Assembly (NCBI RefSeq): GCF_000702325.1
Contig: NZ_KL370891.1
Coordinates: 1,631,306-1,695,305, forward strand
Length of the DNA stretch: 64,000 nt
From: Thiomicrorhabdus sp. Milos-T2
Lineage (GTDB): Bacteria; Pseudomonadota; Gammaproteobacteria; Thiomicrospirales; Thiomicrospiraceae
Reading direction: 5' to 3'
The notes under the pieces were generated by a model. That model ran no database searches. It was given only the letters and a program-made list of their open reading frames with translations, and was not told the origin of the DNA. The position numbers and the translations under genes were made by a program. Below, piece after piece: positions 42,745 through 50,555 of the stretch; within the stretch, counting starts at the first letter, position 1, and each line of letters opens with the position of its first letter.

Positions 42745-43392
42745 ATGAATCTAGATCAAGCGCGCTTTTTCATGGTAGAACAGCAAATCCGCCCTTGGGA
42801 TGTTTTGGACCCTAAAATCCTAGATTTAATCATGGATATTCCTCGTCACCTATTTGTAGAAGCTGGCAATGAAGAACTTGCCTATTCAGATATTGAGCTC
42901 CCTATTGGTCATGAACAATTCATGATGGCGCCTAAGATTGAAGGCCGTCTGTTGCAAGCTCTAGATATTGATGAAGATGATTGTGTCTTAGAAATTGGTA
43001 CAGGCTCTGGTTACTTAACAGCTCTCATGGCAAATTTAGGTAAATCAGTTACCAGTGTCGAACTATACGAAGATATTTTAAATCATGCAAAAACCCGATT
43101 AGCGAGTTACCAAAACATTGAGCTCCTGTCTGGTGACGCCGCTAATGGCTGGGAAGATGGACACAAATACGATGTTATCGTACTAACAGGTTCAACCCCT
43201 ACTGTTCCACAAAGCTACAAAGAACAACTTAATTTGGGTGGTAGACTTGCCATTGTTACAGGTAATGCCCCAGCAATGACCGCTCAAGTCATTACTCGTA
43301 TTAGCGACCAAGAGTGGGAAACTGAAACCTTATTTGAAACAGATTTAAAACCATTAATTTCATCCCACTCTAATTCAAAGTTTACTTTTTAA
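42745..43392 (+). CDS. pcm: Protein-L-isoaspartate O-methyltransferase-like protein
   Basis: 215 aa. MVEQQIRPWDVLDPKILDLI at the N-terminus, PRHLFV, the motif I segment VLEIGTGSGYLTALMA and GGRLAIVTG fit the Pcm family variant often found upstream of tolC. That variant may not repair isoaspartate in every organism. Cytosolic. AAAGGATATACACA precedes the ATG. Confidence 0.85.
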   Translation: MNLDQARFFMVEQQIRPWDVLDPKILDLIMDIPRHLFVEAGNEELAYSDIELPIGHEQFMMAPKIEGRLLQALDIDEDDCVLEIGTGSGYLTALMANLGKSVTSVELYEDILNHAKTRLASYQNIELLSGDAANGWEDGHKYDVIVLTGSTPTVPQSYKEQLNLGGRLAIVTGNAPAMTAQVITRISDQEWETETLFETDLKPLISSHSNSKFTF

Positions 43393-43877
43393 ATAAAGTT
43401 TACTTTTTAAACATGAAACAGTTTTTATTTAAACCTATAGTACATTACCCAAATATATTTAGACCTTTTCAAGAGCTGATGAATGAATAAAAAGGCTATC
43501 ACTCAAAAAGGCTATTAACCTCTAACTTCAGCCTAAAAAATCCGCCCAATAGTTGCGGACTTTTTAGGCTAAGTCTAAACATTTTTTCACCTTTTGTTTA
43601 CAATTCCTACTCAAAAAAAGACTTCATATCAAAGATTTACAATCAAGTTACCTTTCGTTGATTTCAATACACTAAATTCAATTAACAATCTCAAAACTCG
43701 TGATTTTTTCGCATCACTCTTAAAATATAATGACTAAAAATCAACATCATAAGTATTTTAATATCATCAACAATAAATTTTTTTGAATTTTATTTTACCA
43801 TTTAGTTCCTTACAATCAGCGCCTGACATAAATTTAGTTTATGCTACATAAACCCCATTAATAATAAGGAAATTCAC
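43393..43877. other. Intergenic region before the oxidase operon
   Basis: 485 bases. It holds the pcm terminator (43531-43569) and a partial MITE-end sequence AGACCTTTTCAAGAG near 43463. The AT-rich stretch 43680-43860 should contain the operon promoter, but no clear -35/-10 pair was identified. Confidence 0.4.
43531..43569 (+). terminator. Terminator of pcm
   Basis: GCCTAAAAAATCCGC (43531-43545) pairs with GCGGACTTTTTAGGC (43555-43569) with one mismatch. Confidence 0.65.
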
Positions 43878-45335
43878 ATGGATTTGATTAGTCTTTATCC
43901 TACGTGGTTTGAACCGACTGTTGGTTCTGGCTGGGTTGTCGCGCTGATTGCAACATTCCACGTACTTGCCTCTCACACATCAGTGGGTGCAGCTCTATTG
44001 TTTGCGTATCTCTCTCATAAAGCTTACCGAGAAGATCGTGATGACCTGATTGATTTTATTAAGAAATACGGTCTTTTCTTAATGGTCTTTACCTATGTTG
44101 CCGGTTCGATTACGGGCCCAGGCATATGGTATTCCACTACTGTAGCCAGCCCGAATGGAATTGGCGCCTTAATTCATTCGTTCGTTTGGAAATGGGCGAC
44201 TGAATGGGTCTTCTTTGTTATCGAGGTTGTCGGTGTTTACATGATTGTGTATCTCGTCGGTAAAGTCGATAAGAAAACCCATATGAAAATTTCTGTAATT
44301 TTCGGTATTTCATCCTTTGCCACCATGATTATCATTGTGGGTATTCTGTCTTTCATGATGCTGCCTGGAAAAGAACAATGGTTTACGGAAGGCGGTTATC
44401 TAAACGGTTTCTACGGCACAAATACCTTTATTCAAATGGGGATGCGTGTCGCCTTTATGTTCACCATGACGGCAGTTGTCGGTGGAATCGTTGTCGCAGG
44501 CATTAAAGACCCTGCATTTAAGAAAGAGATGGCTCGTAAATTGGGTTGGTTAGGGATTGTTTCAACGGTGACCGGCGCCCTTTTATTCCAATGGTATTTA
44601 ACCGCCGTGCCTGATCAAGCTTTATTGGTGATGGAAAACCGTCTACCAAGCTATTTTGTGCCCAGTATTATGGCTGTATTAGCAGGAACCTTAACCTACT
44701 TTGTGATTACCATGCTTCGCCCTCAAGTCTTGATTGAAGGCTTTGCCGGTGCAATGACCGTGATTATTCTGGTTGCCGGTTTATGGCCTGAAGAAACGGC
44801 TCGTGAATCTATGCGTAAACCTTGGGTTGCGGGTCAGTATGTTTACTCTAACCAGGTGATTGGTAGAGACGTGCCAGGTATGAACATTAAATCACAATTG
44901 CCCACCATTGAAAAAGTTGGGATTTTAAAAGCCCACCCTTTTACGCCTGACGCTCTAAAAACGGTGACTGCTGATAATAAAATCCAAGCAGGTCAATATA
45001 TCGCGATGGTTTACTGCTCTAATTGTCACTCACCGAGTAAAACAGGGATTCGTCCTCTTCACCGTTACTTCCAAGAAGGCATTACACAAGCACGAATGGA
45101 AAACTATGTTAAGGGTGTTTTAACAACGGGTAATATCGCTTATATGCCTAAAATGCCAATGCTGGATTCAGAAGTCGAAGCATTGTCAGCTTATTTAGTC
45201 ATGAATAAAAATCAAGGGCAAGGTGCTGTCGTTGCTGCTATCAAGCAAGAAGTGAACGACCGTAATCGTGCATTGGCTGAAAAAATGTCAATGGATAAAG
45301 TTGCCTCTGCAAATATCTCACAGGAGGTGAAATAA
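43878..45335 (+). CDS. Cytochrome bd-superfamily oxidase subunit I with fused cytochrome c domain
   Basis: 485 aa. About nine membrane helices resemble CydA: helix I with FHVLASH (H28, H33), a helix with TEWVFFVIE (E109, E116) matching the paired glutamates of CydA, and MRKPW (312-316) where quinol oxidases have GRQPW. After the last helix a periplasmic cytochrome c domain follows, with CSNCH (380-384) and a methionine-rich MPKMPML. A haem c and an altered quinol site suggest electrons enter from cytochrome c. AAGGA lies upstream. First gene of the operon; the next start overlaps its stop. Confidence 0.85.
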   Translation: MDLISLYPTWFEPTVGSGWVVALIATFHVLASHTSVGAALLFAYLSHKAYREDRDDLIDFIKKYGLFLMVFTYVAGSITGPGIWYSTTVASPNGIGALIHSFVWKWATEWVFFVIEVVGVYMIVYLVGKVDKKTHMKISVIFGISSFATMIIIVGILSFMMLPGKEQWFTEGGYLNGFYGTNTFIQMGMRVAFMFTMTAVVGGIVVAGIKDPAFKKEMARKLGWLGIVSTVTGALLFQWYLTAVPDQALLVMENRLPSYFVPSIMAVLAGTLTYFVITMLRPQVLIEGFAGAMTVIILVAGLWPEETARESMRKPWVAGQYVYSNQVIGRDVPGMNIKSQLPTIEKVGILKAHPFTPDALKTVTADNKIQAGQYIAMVYCSNCHSPSKTGIRPLHRYFQEGITQARMENYVKGVLTTGNIAYMPKMPMLDSEVEALSAYLVMNKNQGQGAVVAAIKQEVNDRNRALAEKMSMDKVASANISQEVK

Positions 45336-46585
45336 TGGATGCTTCTCAAGTCACTCAGGTCACTGATATGCTTTACGCCCTGCGTAATCCAGCAGGTGTC
45401 CCCACTTACCCCATTCTTTTTGTTGGGTTAGGGGTACTCACGTTTGCGTTACATATTTTATTTGTTCAACTCATGTTAGGAACTTCAGCCATTACCATTT
45501 TTGGCGCCTTTAAAAATGATGCAAAATGGCGTCGTTTAGGGGCCGCAATGCTAGAAATTTCTAAGATTTCCGTTTCGGTAGCCATTGTTATTGGCGTGGC
45601 ACCCTTGCTGTTTGTGCAAGTGGTGTATGACCCAAACTGGTATGCCTCTAACGTTTTATCAGCGGTATGGGTCATCGCGTTTATCGTTATTCTTATCTTT
45701 GCCTACTGGGCGATGTATGGTTATTACTTCATGAATAGCAAAGAAAAAGATAAAACCAAAGAACCTAAAGGTAAGGCTTGGATGCTGATTAGTGTTGCCT
45801 TGTTGCTAACGGTTGGGTTTATTATGCACAGCCTATCATCACAAATGTTGCATCCTGAACTTTGGAAAGACTGGTACCAACAAAATGGCGTGCTTGATTA
45901 TTCTGGTACAAAATTACATGCATATAACTTATGGCGTTTTGCATTCTTTATCAGCATGGCGATTCCTGTGGTAGGTGGCATGTTGGTTACTTATCGTCGC
46001 TTTAAAATGGTACGTGCTGATGCCGATATGGAATACCTAGACTTTGCTGCCAATGTGGGTAAAAAATGGATTGCCATTGGTTCGGTTATTGCCTTCGTTT
46101 TTTATGTTGCATGGATGATGACGGTTCCTGAAACAGCAGGGAATTTTGCCACGTCTCTTTGGGGAATCTTAGGCGGTGTTGCTGTGCTTCTACCTGCTAT
46201 TTGGTCAGCCATTCGTCTTAATGGTAGCTCATACAACATGTGTAGTTACATGGCGCTGCCAATTGCATTGGTCGCTGGCTTAACCATTGCAATCGTTCGC
46301 GAAATGCTACGTTACGACATCCTAAATGGTTTCTTCCACTACGATTTCATGGATTATAAAATTGTAATGGACTGGTATTCAACAGGAATGTTCTTCTTAA
46401 CCTTTGCCATTGTGGGTGGCGTGGTACTTTCTTACTTCCTAACCGTTGCTTGGAAAGCCGGTCAAACGGTGGGTGTCTATACACCAAGTGCCTTTGTTAA
46501 CAGACTGGGAACGCTTTCCATCTGGATTGTTGCCCTTTGGGTATTGCAGTTCTTTGTTGTTGGTTTTTATGTGTGGGCAAGATAG
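45335..46585 (+). CDS. Second membrane subunit of the bd-like oxidase
   Basis: 416 aa with about nine or ten membrane helices. The N-terminal LHILFVQLMLGTSAI resembles the haem-ligand helix of CydA (HFLFVPLTLG) more than typical CydB, so it could be a CydA-like partner. It overlaps the first subunit by one base (TAATG), a sign of coupled translation. It is probably the obligate partner in the oxidase complex. Haem content cannot be settled from sequence. Confidence 0.75.
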   Translation: MDASQVTQVTDMLYALRNPAGVPTYPILFVGLGVLTFALHILFVQLMLGTSAITIFGAFKNDAKWRRLGAAMLEISKISVSVAIVIGVAPLLFVQVVYDPNWYASNVLSAVWVIAFIVILIFAYWAMYGYYFMNSKEKDKTKEPKGKAWMLISVALLLTVGFIMHSLSSQMLHPELWKDWYQQNGVLDYSGTKLHAYNLWRFAFFISMAIPVVGGMLVTYRRFKMVRADADMEYLDFAANVGKKWIAIGSVIAFVFYVAWMMTVPETAGNFATSLWGILGGVAVLLPAIWSAIRLNGSSYNMCSYMALPIALVAGLTIAIVREMLRYDILNGFFHYDFMDYKIVMDWYSTGMFFLTFAIVGGVVLSYFLTVAWKAGQTVGVYTPSAFVNRLGTLSIWIVALWVLQFFVVGFYVWAR

Positions 46586-46600
46586 GAAAAGGAACGGATT

Positions 46601-47029
46601 ATGAAAAAATTACTATTATTAAGTGCCGTGACTGGTCTTACTTGCATGCTGCAAGCACCGGCTAGCTTTGCGCTAACGGGCGGCATTTCTGCAGAAGAAA
46701 ACGCAAAGCTACGCGCTGAATACCCTATGCCTTCAGCAGAAATGCTGGGCGATAACTGTTCAGCATGCCACGGGACTAACGGCGCAGAATTTAATGAAGC
46801 CATGCCGCCTCTAGCCGGTATGGACAAGAACAACTTCATCAAATTGATGAAAGAATATCGTGAAAATAAGTTTCCATCGATTGTGATGCATGACGTCGCC
46901 CACGTTTTTTCTGATGAAGAGATTGAGGCAATGGGAGATTTCTTTGCCAAGCAAAAACCTGAACAATGGACTCGTCCAGATTGGAACAAGTCAATCAAGC
47001 AGCATGCAGAGGAGCACAGTCATGAATAA
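46601..47029 (+). CDS. fccA: Flavocytochrome c sulfide dehydrogenase, cytochrome subunit
   Basis: 142 aa. Signal peptide (1 to about 24), one haem site CSACH (53-57), then PPLAGMDKNNFIKLMKEYRENK typical of FccA/c4-like cytochromes, and a His-rich tail (EEHSHE). It receives electrons from the flavoprotein encoded next and passes them on in the periplasm. It overlaps fccB by 8 bases. GGAAAAGGAACGG precedes the ATG. Confidence 0.85.
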   Translation: MKKLLLLSAVTGLTCMLQAPASFALTGGISAEENAKLRAEYPMPSAEMLGDNCSACHGTNGAEFNEAMPPLAGMDKNNFIKLMKEYRENKFPSIVMHDVAHVFSDEEIEAMGDFFAKQKPEQWTRPDWNKSIKQHAEEHSHE

Positions 47030-48320
47030 AATAACACGACGCGACCTGATTAAACTTTTTGGTACCACAGCCTTGAGTACTGGCTTAATGGGTGCATCAA
47101 GCTTGGCCTTTGCCAGTAAAAGTGCACACATTGTTATTGTTGGAGGTGGTGTGGGGGGTGCGGCTTCCGCCAAATATATGCGATTACTTAACCCTGACGT
47201 TCGCATCACCATTGTTGAACCAGAGCCAAAATACATTTTTTGTCCAGGCAGTAATGAAGTGGTTGCAGACTTTGATACTCTTGAAAGTCTAACGGTTGAT
47301 TTCAACACCTTGAAATCACGCTATGCGGTCAATATCATTCAAGATCGAGCGACTGAAATTGATTATGCGGCCAAAAAGCTGAAACTCGCCAAAGGAGATG
47401 TTTTATCTTACGACAAGCTAATCGTCTCTCCTGGCCCAGACTTTAAATATGATGCCGTTGAAGGCTTCAGTAAACAATTGGCAGAAGGCAACTTCCCTGC
47501 CGCTTGGCACGCTGGACCACAAACACTGGTATTAAGAGATCAAATTAACGCGCTTCCACAAGGTGGCACCGTGTTGATTACTTCACCGGTTGACCCTTAT
47601 CGTTGCCCTCCCGCCCCTTACGAGCGTGCCTCTTTTATCGCTAATAAATTAAAAACCGTCAACCCAACGGCTAAGGTGATTATTTTAGATTCAAAAGATG
47701 ACTTTATTTTCCATGACGTCTATCTTGATTACTGGGAAAAAATGCATGGACTAGGCACTCCTGATGCGCGCATCGAATGGATTTCTAAAAAATCGGGTGG
47801 TCATGTCACCAAATTAGATACCAAAAACCGTACCCTAACAACGGCTAACGGACAGGTTCACAAAGGGGATGTCATTAATATCATCCCACCAGAAATGGCC
47901 GGTTCTTTCGTGCGAATGAATGGCTTGTCTGAAGGTGATTGGGCACCATTTAACTCAAAAGACTTCTCAACTAAACGGGATAAAGACGTGTATATCATTG
48001 GGGATTCCGCCGCCGCTGACCCCATGCCTAAAACAGGCTATATTGCCAGTAACCAAGCCAAGGTCGTCACTAAAGCAATTCACGCTGAATTGACAGGCAA
48101 AGATATTGGAACGCCGTTTATTACCAATAACTGTGTGGCGTTGGCTGCAGACGATTGGGGAATGACCGTTGCAGAAACTTTCCGATATGCGGGGAACAAC
48201 AAGCCTTTTGAAGAAAGCTATATCATGTCTGATCCGACAAAAAACCCATTTTATCGTCATATTCGTGCTGAAGTGGCGAAAAACTGGCAACGTACTTTCC
48301 GTAAAGACATCTATAGCTAA
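47022..48320 (+). CDS. fccB: Flavocytochrome c sulfide dehydrogenase, flavoprotein subunit
   Basis: 432 aa. Tat signal with twin Arg (TRRDLIKLFG), FAD-binding IVIVGGGVGG (about 37-46), the redox-active Cys in YRCPPAPYERAS (C195) and in FITNNC (C371), and a second FAD contact DVYIIGDSAAADPMPKTGYIA. These are the marks of sulfide-oxidising FccB/SoxF. It oxidises sulfide to zero-valent sulfur or polysulfide in the periplasm. The ATG at 47022 with GAGGAG 7 bases upstream is clear; the longer frame from 46890 lies over fccA. Confidence 0.93.
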   Translation: MNKITRRDLIKLFGTTALSTGLMGASSLAFASKSAHIVIVGGGVGGAASAKYMRLLNPDVRITIVEPEPKYIFCPGSNEVVADFDTLESLTVDFNTLKSRYAVNIIQDRATEIDYAAKKLKLAKGDVLSYDKLIVSPGPDFKYDAVEGFSKQLAEGNFPAAWHAGPQTLVLRDQINALPQGGTVLITSPVDPYRCPPAPYERASFIANKLKTVNPTAKVIILDSKDDFIFHDVYLDYWEKMHGLGTPDARIEWISKKSGGHVTKLDTKNRTLTTANGQVHKGDVINIIPPEMAGSFVRMNGLSEGDWAPFNSKDFSTKRDKDVYIIGDSAAADPMPKTGYIASNQAKVVTKAIHAELTGKDIGTPFITNNCVALAADDWGMTVAETFRYAGNNKPFEESYIMSDPTKNPFYRHIRAEVAKNWQRTFRKDIYS

Positions 48321-48330
48321 GGAGCACAAA

Positions 48331-49029
48331 ATGAAGAAAACTTTATTAATTAGTGCCTTAGCACTCACAACTGGGTTTACCCAATTAGCATCTGCCAATG
48401 AACACGCCGCGCCACAAGCGCAAGCATGGACATTACAACAGTGGCACCAAACACAAAATAATATTCCTAATGGAAATATTTCAAAAGGGGCAGAATTACA
48501 TAAACAAGCCTTGTGTATGACTTGTCACGGTGAAAACGGTGTCGCCCCCTCACGTAATGCGCCAAGCCTTGCAGGGAACAACATTGACTACACCTTTAAA
48601 ACCTTAAAGGACTATCAATCTGGTTTACGTAATGAAGGTCATGGTAAATCTGCAGTGATGATTGCCGCAGCCCAAAGTTTGACACAGCAGGATATGGCTG
48701 ACTTAGCCTATTTTTATGCCGAACAAACTTTGCAGTCTAAAGCGCCAGCACAGGCTTTATCCTCTTCAACTGAGCGTTTGGTCAGAAAAGGCGATGTGAA
48801 AAGAATGATTACACCCTGCGCATCCTGCCACGGTGTTCATGGTGAAGGTAATGAAATCACACCTGCTCTCGCGGGACAGACTGCCCATTACTTTATTCGC
48901 ACCATGAAAGCCTATAAAATCAAACATCGTACCAACGATATTAACCAAGGTATGGGGCAGTTTACCCATGACTTAACCGATGAAGAAATCCATGCACTTG
49001 CGGATTACTATGCATCTCTAAGTAAATAA
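48331..49029 (+). CDS. Dihaem cytochrome c (c4-like)
   Basis: 232 aa. Signal peptide (1-22), two class I haem domains with CMTCH (62-66) and CASCH (163-167), each followed by a PSLAG/PALAG loop. Periplasmic electron carrier. Placed directly after fccB with AAGGAG before the start, it is the natural link from FccAB to the haem c of the oxidase. Confidence 0.9.
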   Translation: MKKTLLISALALTTGFTQLASANEHAAPQAQAWTLQQWHQTQNNIPNGNISKGAELHKQALCMTCHGENGVAPSRNAPSLAGNNIDYTFKTLKDYQSGLRNEGHGKSAVMIAAAQSLTQQDMADLAYFYAEQTLQSKAPAQALSSSTERLVRKGDVKRMITPCASCHGVHGEGNEITPALAGQTAHYFIRTMKAYKIKHRTNDINQGMGQFTHDLTDEEIHALADYYASLSK

Positions 49030-49041
49030 AAGGACAAGGTT

Positions 49042-49140
49042 ATGAATGGTATCAAAGCAATTATTTGGGGTCTAATATTAACGTTTGGTTCAATTGCATT
49101 AATGTGGTGGTTAAGTACCATGACGGTAGTTGCAGTTTAA
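49042..49140 (+). CDS. 32-aa single-helix membrane peptide, candidate oxidase subunit
   Basis: Reads MNGIKAIIWGLILTFGSIAL and ends in MWWLSTMTVVAV: one membrane helix and almost nothing else. AAAGGACAAGG precedes the ATG, and it is 12 bases behind the dihaem cytochrome and before the operon terminator. Small subunits of this size (CydX, CydS, CydH) stabilise bd oxidases, but the sequence is not recognisably one of them. Confidence 0.65.
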   Translation: MNGIKAIIWGLILTFGSIALMWWLSTMTVVAV

Positions 49141-49181
49141 ATTTATTTACACTCGCTTCAACTAGACTCTCCTAAAAGTCG

Positions 49182-49214
49182 CCTCTCAGAACAACTGTTT
49201 TGAGAGGTTTTTTT
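49182..49214 (+). terminator. Terminator of the oxidase-fcc operon
   Basis: CCTCTCAGAACA (49182-49193), loop AC, TGTTTTGAGAGG (49196-49207), then seven T. Confidence 0.92.
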
Positions 49215-49282
49215 GGTTATAACCCCTGATAATGCCTTTCTAATCATAAGGTTATTAAACGATTTACAAACATGAGAATCCT

Positions 49283-49564
49283 ATGAAAACATTAAGAACC
49301 TTATCCTTACTTGAAGGCTCATCCCTCTTACTACTCCTGTTCATTGCCGTTCCTTTAAAACGGATGTTAGACATGCCAGAAGCCGTATCCATAATTGGAC
49401 CAATCCACGGTATATTGTTTATAGTCTTTAATTTAACAATCGTTATTGCAGTGGCTAAATCTCAACTAAAAGCAAGCCATGGCTTAATAGGTTTCATCGC
49501 TTCACTCATCCCATTTGGTAGTTTTGTCTTTAAAGCAAAACTACTAAACAAAACGCAGTATTAA
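49283..49564 (+). CDS. DUF3817 small membrane protein
   Basis: 93 aa, three hydrophobic segments. LSLLEGSSLLLLLFIAVPLKRM, GPIHGILFIVFNLTIVIA and IPFGSFVFKAKL match the DUF3817 family, whose function is unknown. It is followed by the SLAC1-type gene after 22 bases. Confidence 0.85.
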   Translation: MKTLRTLSLLEGSSLLLLLFIAVPLKRMLDMPEAVSIIGPIHGILFIVFNLTIVIAVAKSQLKASHGLIGFIASLIPFGSFVFKAKLLNKTQY

Positions 49565-49586
49565 GAACTTTAACAAAGGAAGAAAC

Positions 49587-50555
49587 ATGATTGAAAGATT
49601 ACAAAACCTAGCCTACTTTCCTGCTAGTTTTTTTGGCATGATTATGGGGCTAACAGGCTTAAGCATTGCCTTTATAAGCTTAGCTCAAGTTTATGAAACC
49701 ACGGCAATATTTTCTAAAATTTCATTCGTATTTACTTTAGTGTTAATGGTGATTTTAATTTTAATGTACAGCTATAAAGTCATGCGCTTTCCTAAAGAAG
49801 TCATTGCTGAATTAGAACACCCTGTTAAAATGAACTTTGTTCCAACAATCAGCATTAGCTTATTGTTATTGAGTATCGCTTTTTATGCTTTGGGTTACAT
49901 TGAAATATCTCAATACACATGGATTATCGGGGCAGCATTACAACTTTCACTAACCTACTGGGTACTTTATAACTGGGTACATCATGACTTCTTTACGCCA
50001 GAGCACTCTAACCCGGCCTGGTTCATCCCAATTGTTGGTAACATCATTGTGCCAATTGCTGGTGTTCACCATGCTCCCATTGAATTAAGTTGGTTCTTTT
50101 TCTCTATCGGAATCATTTTTTGGCTGGTTGTTAAGTCAATATTAGTGAATAGAATTATTTTTCACGCCCCCATACAAGAAAGATTAATTCCAACACTATT
50201 CATCTTTATTGCACCGCCAGCGGTTGGATTTATCTCCTACTTAGCGTTAAACAATCACGAACTTAATCAGTTTGGAATGGTCTTATACTTTTTTGGCTTA
50301 TCTATGACTTTACTCATGATGGTATCAGTTGGAAAATTTATTAAACTGTCATTTGCTTTGTCCTGGTGGGCATATACCTTCCCCTTAGCAGCAATGGCAA
50401 TTGCCAGTTATAAAATGGCGCAAGTCGCACATTCCAATTTTTATCTTTATATCGCCATAGCCATCCATGTAGTGCTGTTTGTTTTAATTCTCAACTTCTT
50501 AGCTAAAACGGTAAAAGCCGTATATCTGAAGCAGATTTGTAATGACAAACACTAA
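49587..50555 (+). CDS. SLAC1/TehA-type anion channel
   Basis: 322 aa with ten membrane helices, the number in the TehA/SLAC1 fold. FFGMIMGLTGLSIAF starts helix I and WFIPIVGNIIVPIAG fits the family. It conducts or exports anions (sulfite, dicarboxylates, nitrate or chloride in known members). In a sulfur oxidiser sulfite export is conceivable, but the ligand is open. It overlaps the next start by 14 bases. Confidence 0.85.
   Translation: MIERLQNLAYFPASFFGMIMGLTGLSIAFISLAQVYETTAIFSKISFVFTLVLMVILILMYSYKVMRFPKEVIAELEHPVKMNFVPTISISLLLLSIAFYALGYIEISQYTWIIGAALQLSLTYWVLYNWVHHDFFTPEHSNPAWFIPIVGNIIVPIAGVHHAPIELSWFFFSIGIIFWLVVKSILVNRIIFHAPIQERLIPTLFIFIAPPAVGFISYLALNNHELNQFGMVLYFFGLSMTLLMMVSVGKFIKLSFALSWWAYTFPLAAMAIASYKMAQVAHSNFYLYIAIAIHVVLFVLILNFLAKTVKAVYLKQICNDKH

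Follow-up and report, generated by a model that had tools for sequence, protein, structure and literature searches.

Does an operon of Thiomicrorhabdus sp. Milos-T2 join the oxidation of sulfide to the reduction of oxygen within one transcriptional unit, and by what kind of oxidase? The question is raised by six + strand genes at positions 43878-49140 of the 64,000-nucleotide stretch analysed here (the window; contig NZ_KL370891.1, positions 1,631,306 to 1,695,305), which belongs to a 2.66-Mb genome in two contigs. In this operon, a putative two-subunit oxidase is followed by the cytochrome (FccA) and flavoprotein (FccB) of a flavocytochrome c sulfide dehydrogenase (Fcc), a dihaem cytochrome c, and a short hydrophobic peptide. 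Our analysis suggests that the operon is probably a sulfide-oxidising respiratory unit, in which a cytochrome-c-fed oxidase of the bd superfamily would serve the sulfide dehydrogenase through the dihaem cytochrome c. The features are as follows.

43878..45335, + strand: subunit I, 485 residues, an open reading frame with a predicted CydA-like membrane core followed by a haem c domain
45015..45029, + strand: haem c motif CSNCH of subunit I (residues 380-384), from the sequence and its invariance
45335..46585, + strand: subunit II, 416 residues, a putative CydA-like paralogue lacking CxxCH (open reading frame, profile, and predicted fold)
46601..47029, + strand: FccA, a monohaem cytochrome c of 142 residues with one CxxCH (open reading frame; Pfam Cytochrom_C above cut-off)
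47022..48320, + strand: FccB, the flavocytochrome c sulfide dehydrogenase flavoprotein, 432 residues (Pfam FCSD domains, phmmer, and cysteines)
48331..49029, + strand: dihaem cytochrome c, 232 residues (two Cytochrom_C stretches above cut-off)
49042..49140, + strand: hydrophobic peptide of 32 residues, a possible single-helix accessory subunit (open reading frame)
49181..49208, + strand: terminator-like hairpin with a 12-pair stem and a trailing T run (hairpin scan)

The earlier note on this DNA had described six consecutive genes with overlapping or near-touching junctions and a terminator at the operon end, and both descriptions hold. The open reading frame list and the sequence give junctions of -1, +15, -8, +10, and +12 nt, within a range of -8 to +15 nt. 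Specifically, subunit II overlaps subunit I by 1 nt if its first ATG is taken as the start, FccA begins 15 nt past subunit II, the start of FccB overlaps the end of FccA by 8 nt, and gaps of 10 and 12 nt separate FccB from the dihaem cytochrome c and the latter from the peptide. Ten stems were detected in 43390-49300, against a shuffle mean of 5.9, and that of the hairpin at 49181-49208, with its T tail, is the longest. A promoter scan returned 13 sites against 14.6 in shuffled sequence; with no excess over the shuffles, the scan is uninformative on transcription.

Subunit I escapes the standard family models. Its only matches in Pfam and NCBIfam are weak hits to cytochrome c over residues 365-441, and the Pfam hits fall below cut-off (E 0.0011 and 0.013). 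The CydA model PF01654 matches neither subunit I nor anything else in the whole genome, and a control search with it was positive in 10 of 14 named genomes. A sequence search of solved structures returned cytochromes c only, with subunit I alone or as a profile. Because PF01654 misses the protein, it is assigned to the bd superfamily by its fold and motifs. The AlphaFold2 model of subunit I has a predicted local distance difference test score (pLDDT) of 78.9, with residues 1-17, 88-95, and 315-324 largely poor. Searched with Foldseek, this model retrieves bd oxidase chains in the top 19 rows (best E 5.7e-5), and in VIA-align it superimposes on 6rx4_A over 302 residues with Z 24.0 and a root-mean-square deviation of 3.5. 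VIA-align ranks 1-10 are all CydA chains (Z 21.3-24.0), below which come subunits of alternative complex III (Z 17-18) and polysulfide reductase (Z 15.2). As modelled, the main chain of subunit I has the CydA fold by which the bd oxygen reductase superfamily is recognised.

Invariant in all 47 aligned subunit I rows are H28, E109, E116, R190, F193, R309, E310, R313, C380, C383, H384, and M423. In a weak profile alignment to CydA (Prob 29.6, E 5.7e-4), for which the motif filter let through 9/30 loci, including one that contains an X, H28 and E116 align with the conserved His and Glu of CydA; the second CydA Glu falls on G96, beside a 12-residue insertion, with E109 a candidate for its place. 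The CydA residue numbering used in this haem-ligand comparison is our assumption. E109 was also considered as the counterpart of CydA's first Glu and dropped, as the profile alignment does not show that pairing. In the same weak alignment, F193 occupies the column of the histidine in CydA's VKFVH stretch, presumably the b558 ligand, and the motif E310-x-x-R313-K-P resembles what we take to be CydA's E-x-x-R-Q-P. In the model, helices 212-243 and 260-280 are separated by residues 244-259 only, and because so little separates these helices, the sixth and seventh long ones, there is no room for a long quinol loop. The two marks of a canonical quinol bd oxidase, that loop and the b558 histidine, are thus both missing from subunit I, the latter as judged from F193 in the weak alignment. 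Canonical CydAB was ruled out, there being no PF01654 match. Eight long helices are predicted before the haem c; CydA has nine, and the haem c of subunit I should therefore lie on the periplasmic side. The proposal that subunit I is a bd-superfamily protein with a fused haem c is supported by its predicted fold and by the invariant CxxCH and M423, and not by a PF01654 match.

Subunit II had been called the partner of this oxidase. The partner gene is there, and it appears to encode a second CydA-like chain, not CydB: searches gave no CydB family match and no useful match in Pfam or NCBIfam. With hhalign, subunit II matches subunit I (Prob 95.3, E 2e-8) and does not match CydA (E 0.25), and a search of solved structures with its profile gave no match. 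Its model has a pLDDT of 90.1, and bd oxidase chains make up the first 14 Foldseek rows. We place it as CydA-like because of the link to subunit I and the predicted fold. At one locus (L042, G018), subunit II is broken into two overlapping frames by a frameshift or an assembly error. The 32-residue peptide matches no family in Pfam or NCBIfam and is like CydX in size, hydrophobicity, and position only.

We scanned named genomes with subunit I, which gave 65 loci, and counted an FccB as linked when it scored >500 bits and lay on the same strand <=5 kb from subunit I. FccB lies downstream at 46 loci and upstream at 7; 6 have none and 6 end at a contig edge. FccB thus adjoins subunit I in 53/59 judgeable named loci spread over several families, a proportion that rules out chance neighbours or a local oddity and answers the earlier note's concern that the order might be found only here. 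Among the hosts named are Thiomicrorhabdus, Hydrogenovibrio, Thiomicrospira, Sulfurivirga, Thiothrix, Thioalkalivibrio, Thiomonas, Thiobacillus, Hydrogenophilus, Marinobacterium, Rubrivivax, and the alphaproteobacterium Roseospira; the search among sulfur-oxidiser genomes that the note had called for finds the order in many of them. All 46 loci with Fcc downstream have subunit II and a monohaem cytochrome c, and 44/46 have the dihaem cytochrome c; at the two exceptions (L060 and L068), the last cytochrome frame reaches the contig end. The seven loci with Fcc upstream, in records of Halothiobacillus, Halothiobacillaceae, and Guyparkeria, follow the order FccA-FccB-I-II-dihaem c, the dihaem c being counted in 6/7. 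Relatives of the small peptide, 30-33 residues long, occur at 18/46 loci of the first arrangement and 0/7 of the second.

Two further samples were searched. Among 58 relatives, 25 genomes match subunit I at 27 high-scoring places; FccB stands beside 26 of these, and the 27th is at a contig end. In a class sample of 369 genomes, 15 matched, of which five were left out as covering the cytochrome c part only (E 6.6e-6 to 9.8e-4). FccB is adjacent in 7 of the 10 genomes with a long subunit I match, G303 having been checked individually.

The proposed identities of FccA, FccB, and the dihaem cytochrome c are confirmed by Cytochrom_C and FCSD domains above the Pfam cut-off. FccB scores 130.2 bits for FCSD_central and 34.6 bits for FCSD-flav_bind, and phmmer relates it to solved sulfide dehydrogenases at E 1.4e-87 (5n1t_A) and 4.7e-87. 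Its N-terminus is twin-arginine-like. It has C74, C195, and C371, and the redox-active pair C195/C371 is kept in 62/62 oxidase-linked FccB rows, in both rows beside a haem-copper oxidase, and in 47/48 others. C74, which we take to be the likely covalent cysteine of flavin adenine dinucleotide (FAD), is kept in 34/62 linked rows, including that of the window. In the remaining rows, from Halothiobacillus, Thiothrix, Thiobacillus, Thiomonas, and others, it is replaced by Pro or Gly with the redox pair kept; given this replacement, FAD may be bound non-covalently there.

In the FccB tree, one clade of 65 rows (support 100) takes in all 62 linked ones. Its three further members are the FccB of the window genome's own second contig and two from FccA-FccB-dihaem-c sets of G002 and G007. 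The tree comes from a quick search over 112 rows (110 different), with long-branch warnings; 10/30 loci from L124-L153 passed the full-reading-frame filter, several linked rows duplicate a genome that is listed twice under different names (L067 and L219, for example), and L073_2507, an additional FccB at a distance of 5.5 kb from subunit I, is counted as linked all the same. The subunit I tree (quick search, 76 rows, long-branch warnings) has one branch, with support 94, that parts 13 Fcc-less rows from 58 linked and 5 truncated ones. Both trees fit a single origin of the linkage between oxidase and Fcc, of which they are no proof.

Behind a near-constant oxidase, the FccA-FccB-dihaem c cassette varies in type. 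Between the window and G021, identity is 93% for subunit I, 82% for subunit II, and 94% for the peptide, against 41% for FccA, 46% for FccB, and 48% for the dihaem c. T. heinhorstiae HH1 (G014:C3, L029) has two complete tandem operons whose oxidase genes are identical over 2,708 bases, a stretch that may be an assembly error; between the copies, FccA is 46%, FccB 47%, and the dihaem c 57% identical. This variation of the cassette supports coupling between oxidase and donor, as does a second set of FccA, FccB, and dihaem c genes in the genome of the window, next to a haem-copper oxidase (C2, L120:5192-10797). There, dihaem c-COX1-COX2 diverges from FccA-FccB-haem o synthase, and FccB, FccA, and the dihaem c are 60.6%, 40.6%, and 41.4% identical to those of the window. 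COX1 and COX2 of this set match haem-copper models below cut-off, and we take the oxidase to be ba3-like. SCO-like and P-type ATPase genes lie nearby. Of the 58 relatives, 4 have a strong homologue of this COX1, and FccB adjoins it in two (the window's own genome and G055). G055 carries FccA-FccB-Cox2-Cox1-dihaem c on one strand, and since its FccB falls outside the linked clade, the linkage of Fcc to a haem-copper oxidase seems to have arisen more than once. G034 has no Fcc beside its Cox2-Cox1-dihaem c, on a contig of only 6,707 bases.

Further Fcc genes and neighbours were seen apart from these units. A third, divergent FccB of the window's genome (C1, L121:8460-10769) stands behind a lipoprotein-like cytochrome of 341 residues, which has one CxxCH and Asp-rich repeats and might be an FccA anchored at the cell surface. 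At L192 (G013:C66), a 6-kb stretch holds three more FccB genes that alternate in orientation. Directly downstream of the window's operon, at 49283-50552, are genes for a DUF3817 protein and a SLAC1-family channel.

From these parts we infer the haem content, every electron step, and oxygen as the acceptor. Periplasmic FccB would oxidise sulfide with its FAD and Cys-Cys pair and pass electrons to the haem of FccA, from which they would travel to the dihaem cytochrome c, either soluble or loosely bound, and on to the haem c of subunit I, on the periplasmic side. This haem would in turn reduce the high-spin haems of the CydA-like core, where oxygen would be reduced to water, and so replace the electron entry served by quinol and haem b558 in an ordinary bd oxidase. 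Subunits I and II would form the fixed oxidase, and FccA, FccB, and the dihaem c an exchangeable donor cassette. The likely advantage is respiration unblocked by sulfide, which we propose because the bd oxidases of E. coli resist sulfide, its haem-copper oxidase bo3 being inhibited at about 1 uM (PMC4815019). Tolerance of the subunit I/II oxidase itself is a reasoned guess by analogy. A stricter form of this scheme, in which FccAB and the dihaem c dock on the sulfide-unpoisoned, cytochrome-c-fed bd-family oxidase as a physically assembled, quinone-free sulfide:O2 oxidoreductase, and in which evolution swaps the donor cassette as a plug-in module, and likewise the oxidase of the second unit, is conceivable, and we regard it as rather doubtful.

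The earlier note had drawn the path from sulfide through FAD, FccA, the dihaem c, and the fused haem c to oxygen as a complete chain. The unit is supported by the gene order in several families, the single FccB clade, the one-branch oxidases, the disulfide in 62/62 rows, and the parallel unit; the chain does not appear obligatory, since there are cassettes without the oxidase, an oxidase without Fcc, and a ccoN-type oxidase in the genome. Several observations weigh against a dedicated respiratory unit, beginning with the nature of the evidence for it, which consists wholly of sequence and prediction. Six judgeable loci lack Fcc (three in Campylobacterota and three in records of Thiobacillus, Thiobacillaceae, and Gallionellaceae), as do 3/10 long matches in the class sample. 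At four lower-scoring paralogous places within the genus (49-51% identity), subunits I and II are accompanied by a monohaem cytochrome c, and FccB is found at 0/4. FccB is far commoner than the oxidase, occurring in 133/369 against 10/369 genomes of the class sample. At L225:4830-8401 (G007:C74), the methyltransferase gene found upstream in the window is followed by FccA-FccB-dihaem c, leaving no space for the oxidase, and G002:C30 has the same three genes without subunits I and II, beside other genes. The cassette does not always move together, FccB of Hydrogenovibrio JE_KL2 being 92.8% identical and its dihaem c 55.6%. C74 is absent from 28/62 linked FccB rows, though present in that of the window, and the ccoN-like haem-copper oxidase gene of the genome could serve the same cytochromes. 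The paralogous places are L046-L049 (G014, G031, G020, and G023); at L049 and at the Fcc-less L101, the adjoining genes look by eye like a RegB/RegA-type redox two-component system.

Some of these points would be expected if Fcc fed a general cytochrome c pool drained mainly by another oxidase, cbb3-like or the second haem-copper enzyme, with the bd-like complex a co-regulated oxidase of that pool for low oxygen or high sulfide and no private route between them. The ccoN-like gene and second COX1, the oxidase-free sets of G002 and G007:C74, and the lack of such an oxidase from most FccB-bearing genomes of the class sample all agree with it. A shared pool does not lead one to expect that one FccB clade be tied to one oxidase clade across families, that the dihaem c stay beside the oxidase even without Fcc, as in the I-II-dihaem c genes of G171, or that parallel Fcc/dihaem-c/oxidase units exist, and we consider this explanation unlikely. 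Taken together, G171 and the G002 and G007 sets suggest that the oxidase keeps its dihaem c and that Fcc can serve something else.

Less probable still is that the bd-like complex works as a cytochrome c:quinone oxidoreductase, driving Fcc electrons uphill to the quinone pool so as to supply NADH and CO2 fixation. Autotrophs whose electrons arrive at the level of cytochrome c require such a step, and the fold is also near the membrane subunits of alternative complex III and polysulfide reductase (Z 15-18). CydA chains score clearly higher (Z 21-24), the long quinol loop is absent, and the conserved E310/R313 motif is like that of CydA as we assume its residues to be. A cytochrome c:quinone role has been considered for the bd-like protein of Nitrospina, in an excerpt of PMC3578206. 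That the complex is a protective scavenger of oxygen, peroxide, or NO with Fcc merely a handy electron source, or that FccB acts on a sulfur compound other than sulfide, seems the least probable of all: two FccB types do occur with one oxidase in tandem operons, excerpts discuss bd oxidases in detoxification (PMC10839748) and report an fccAB pair induced beside thiocyanate dehydrogenase in Thioalkalivibrio (PMC5744179), and against this stand the catalytic disulfide, intact in every linked row, and the monohaem Fcc of Thiobacillus W5, reported in the same excerpt as a sulfide dehydrogenase.

A sulfide-oxidising respiratory unit of the kind favoured here would combine components that are familiar separately. 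The canonical quinol bd oxidase (CydAB, PF01654) shares with subunit I the CydA fold, its high-spin-site His and Glu aligning only weakly; it differs from the operon oxidase, which has no Pfam match, no long quinol loop, and Phe at the b558 His position, and which adds a fused haem c, a CydA-like second chain, and donor genes in the same operon. Also comparable are the OR-C and OR-N families of the bd superfamily, reportedly defined in Murali 2021. A haem c fused to the CydA-like chain, which we take to be the mark of OR-C, is present in subunit I, with CxxCH and M423 in 47/47 rows. Compared by description only, these reductases have a CydA-like core without a quinol site, with cytochrome c as the proposed donor; for the OR-N enzymes, its oxidation is called likely and unconfirmed (excerpt of PMC10839748). 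The openly licensed literature searched yielded no OR-C or OR-N enzyme linked to sulfide dehydrogenase. A further parallel comes from Nitrospina, Nitrospira, and Kuenenia, whose nitrite oxidoreductase clusters combine a bd-like chain lacking a quinol site with mono- and dihaem cytochromes c and a lithotrophic dehydrogenase; they differ in that the bd-like oxidase of the nitrite oxidisers, termed enigmatic, has 14 predicted helices, a fused haem c goes unmentioned in the excerpt, and the donor is nitrite oxidoreductase, not FccAB (PMC3578206). On the donor side, the operon FccB has the domains and cysteines of the Fcc of Allochromatium, Thioalkalivibrio, and Thiobacillus W5, and a monohaem FccA is also described for Guyparkeria, Thioalkalivibrio, and W5 in excerpts of PMC6504805 and PMC5744179. 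Unlike known Fcc, that of the operon is tied to an oxidase, and its FccB clade stands apart from the other sampled FccBs. No description of an operon that holds both FccAB and a bd-family oxidase was found in the openly licensed literature, and one may be published elsewhere. The parts are known; their conserved, exchangeable combination is new as far as the search reached.

This oxidase escapes the standard family models and so may be overlooked in genome surveys. An excerpt of PMC6504805 lists only cbb3 and ba3 oxidases for Guyparkeria sp. SCN-R1; another Guyparkeria strain, in our scan (L091), has the oxidase-Fcc cluster. For bd-family proteins without a quinol site, the operon would name a natural donor, sulfide dehydrogenase, and as it does so in culturable bacteria, the use of cytochrome c by such proteins becomes testable. 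If true, this reading would account for how sulfide oxidisers may keep respiring where sulfide is high enough to block haem-copper oxidases.

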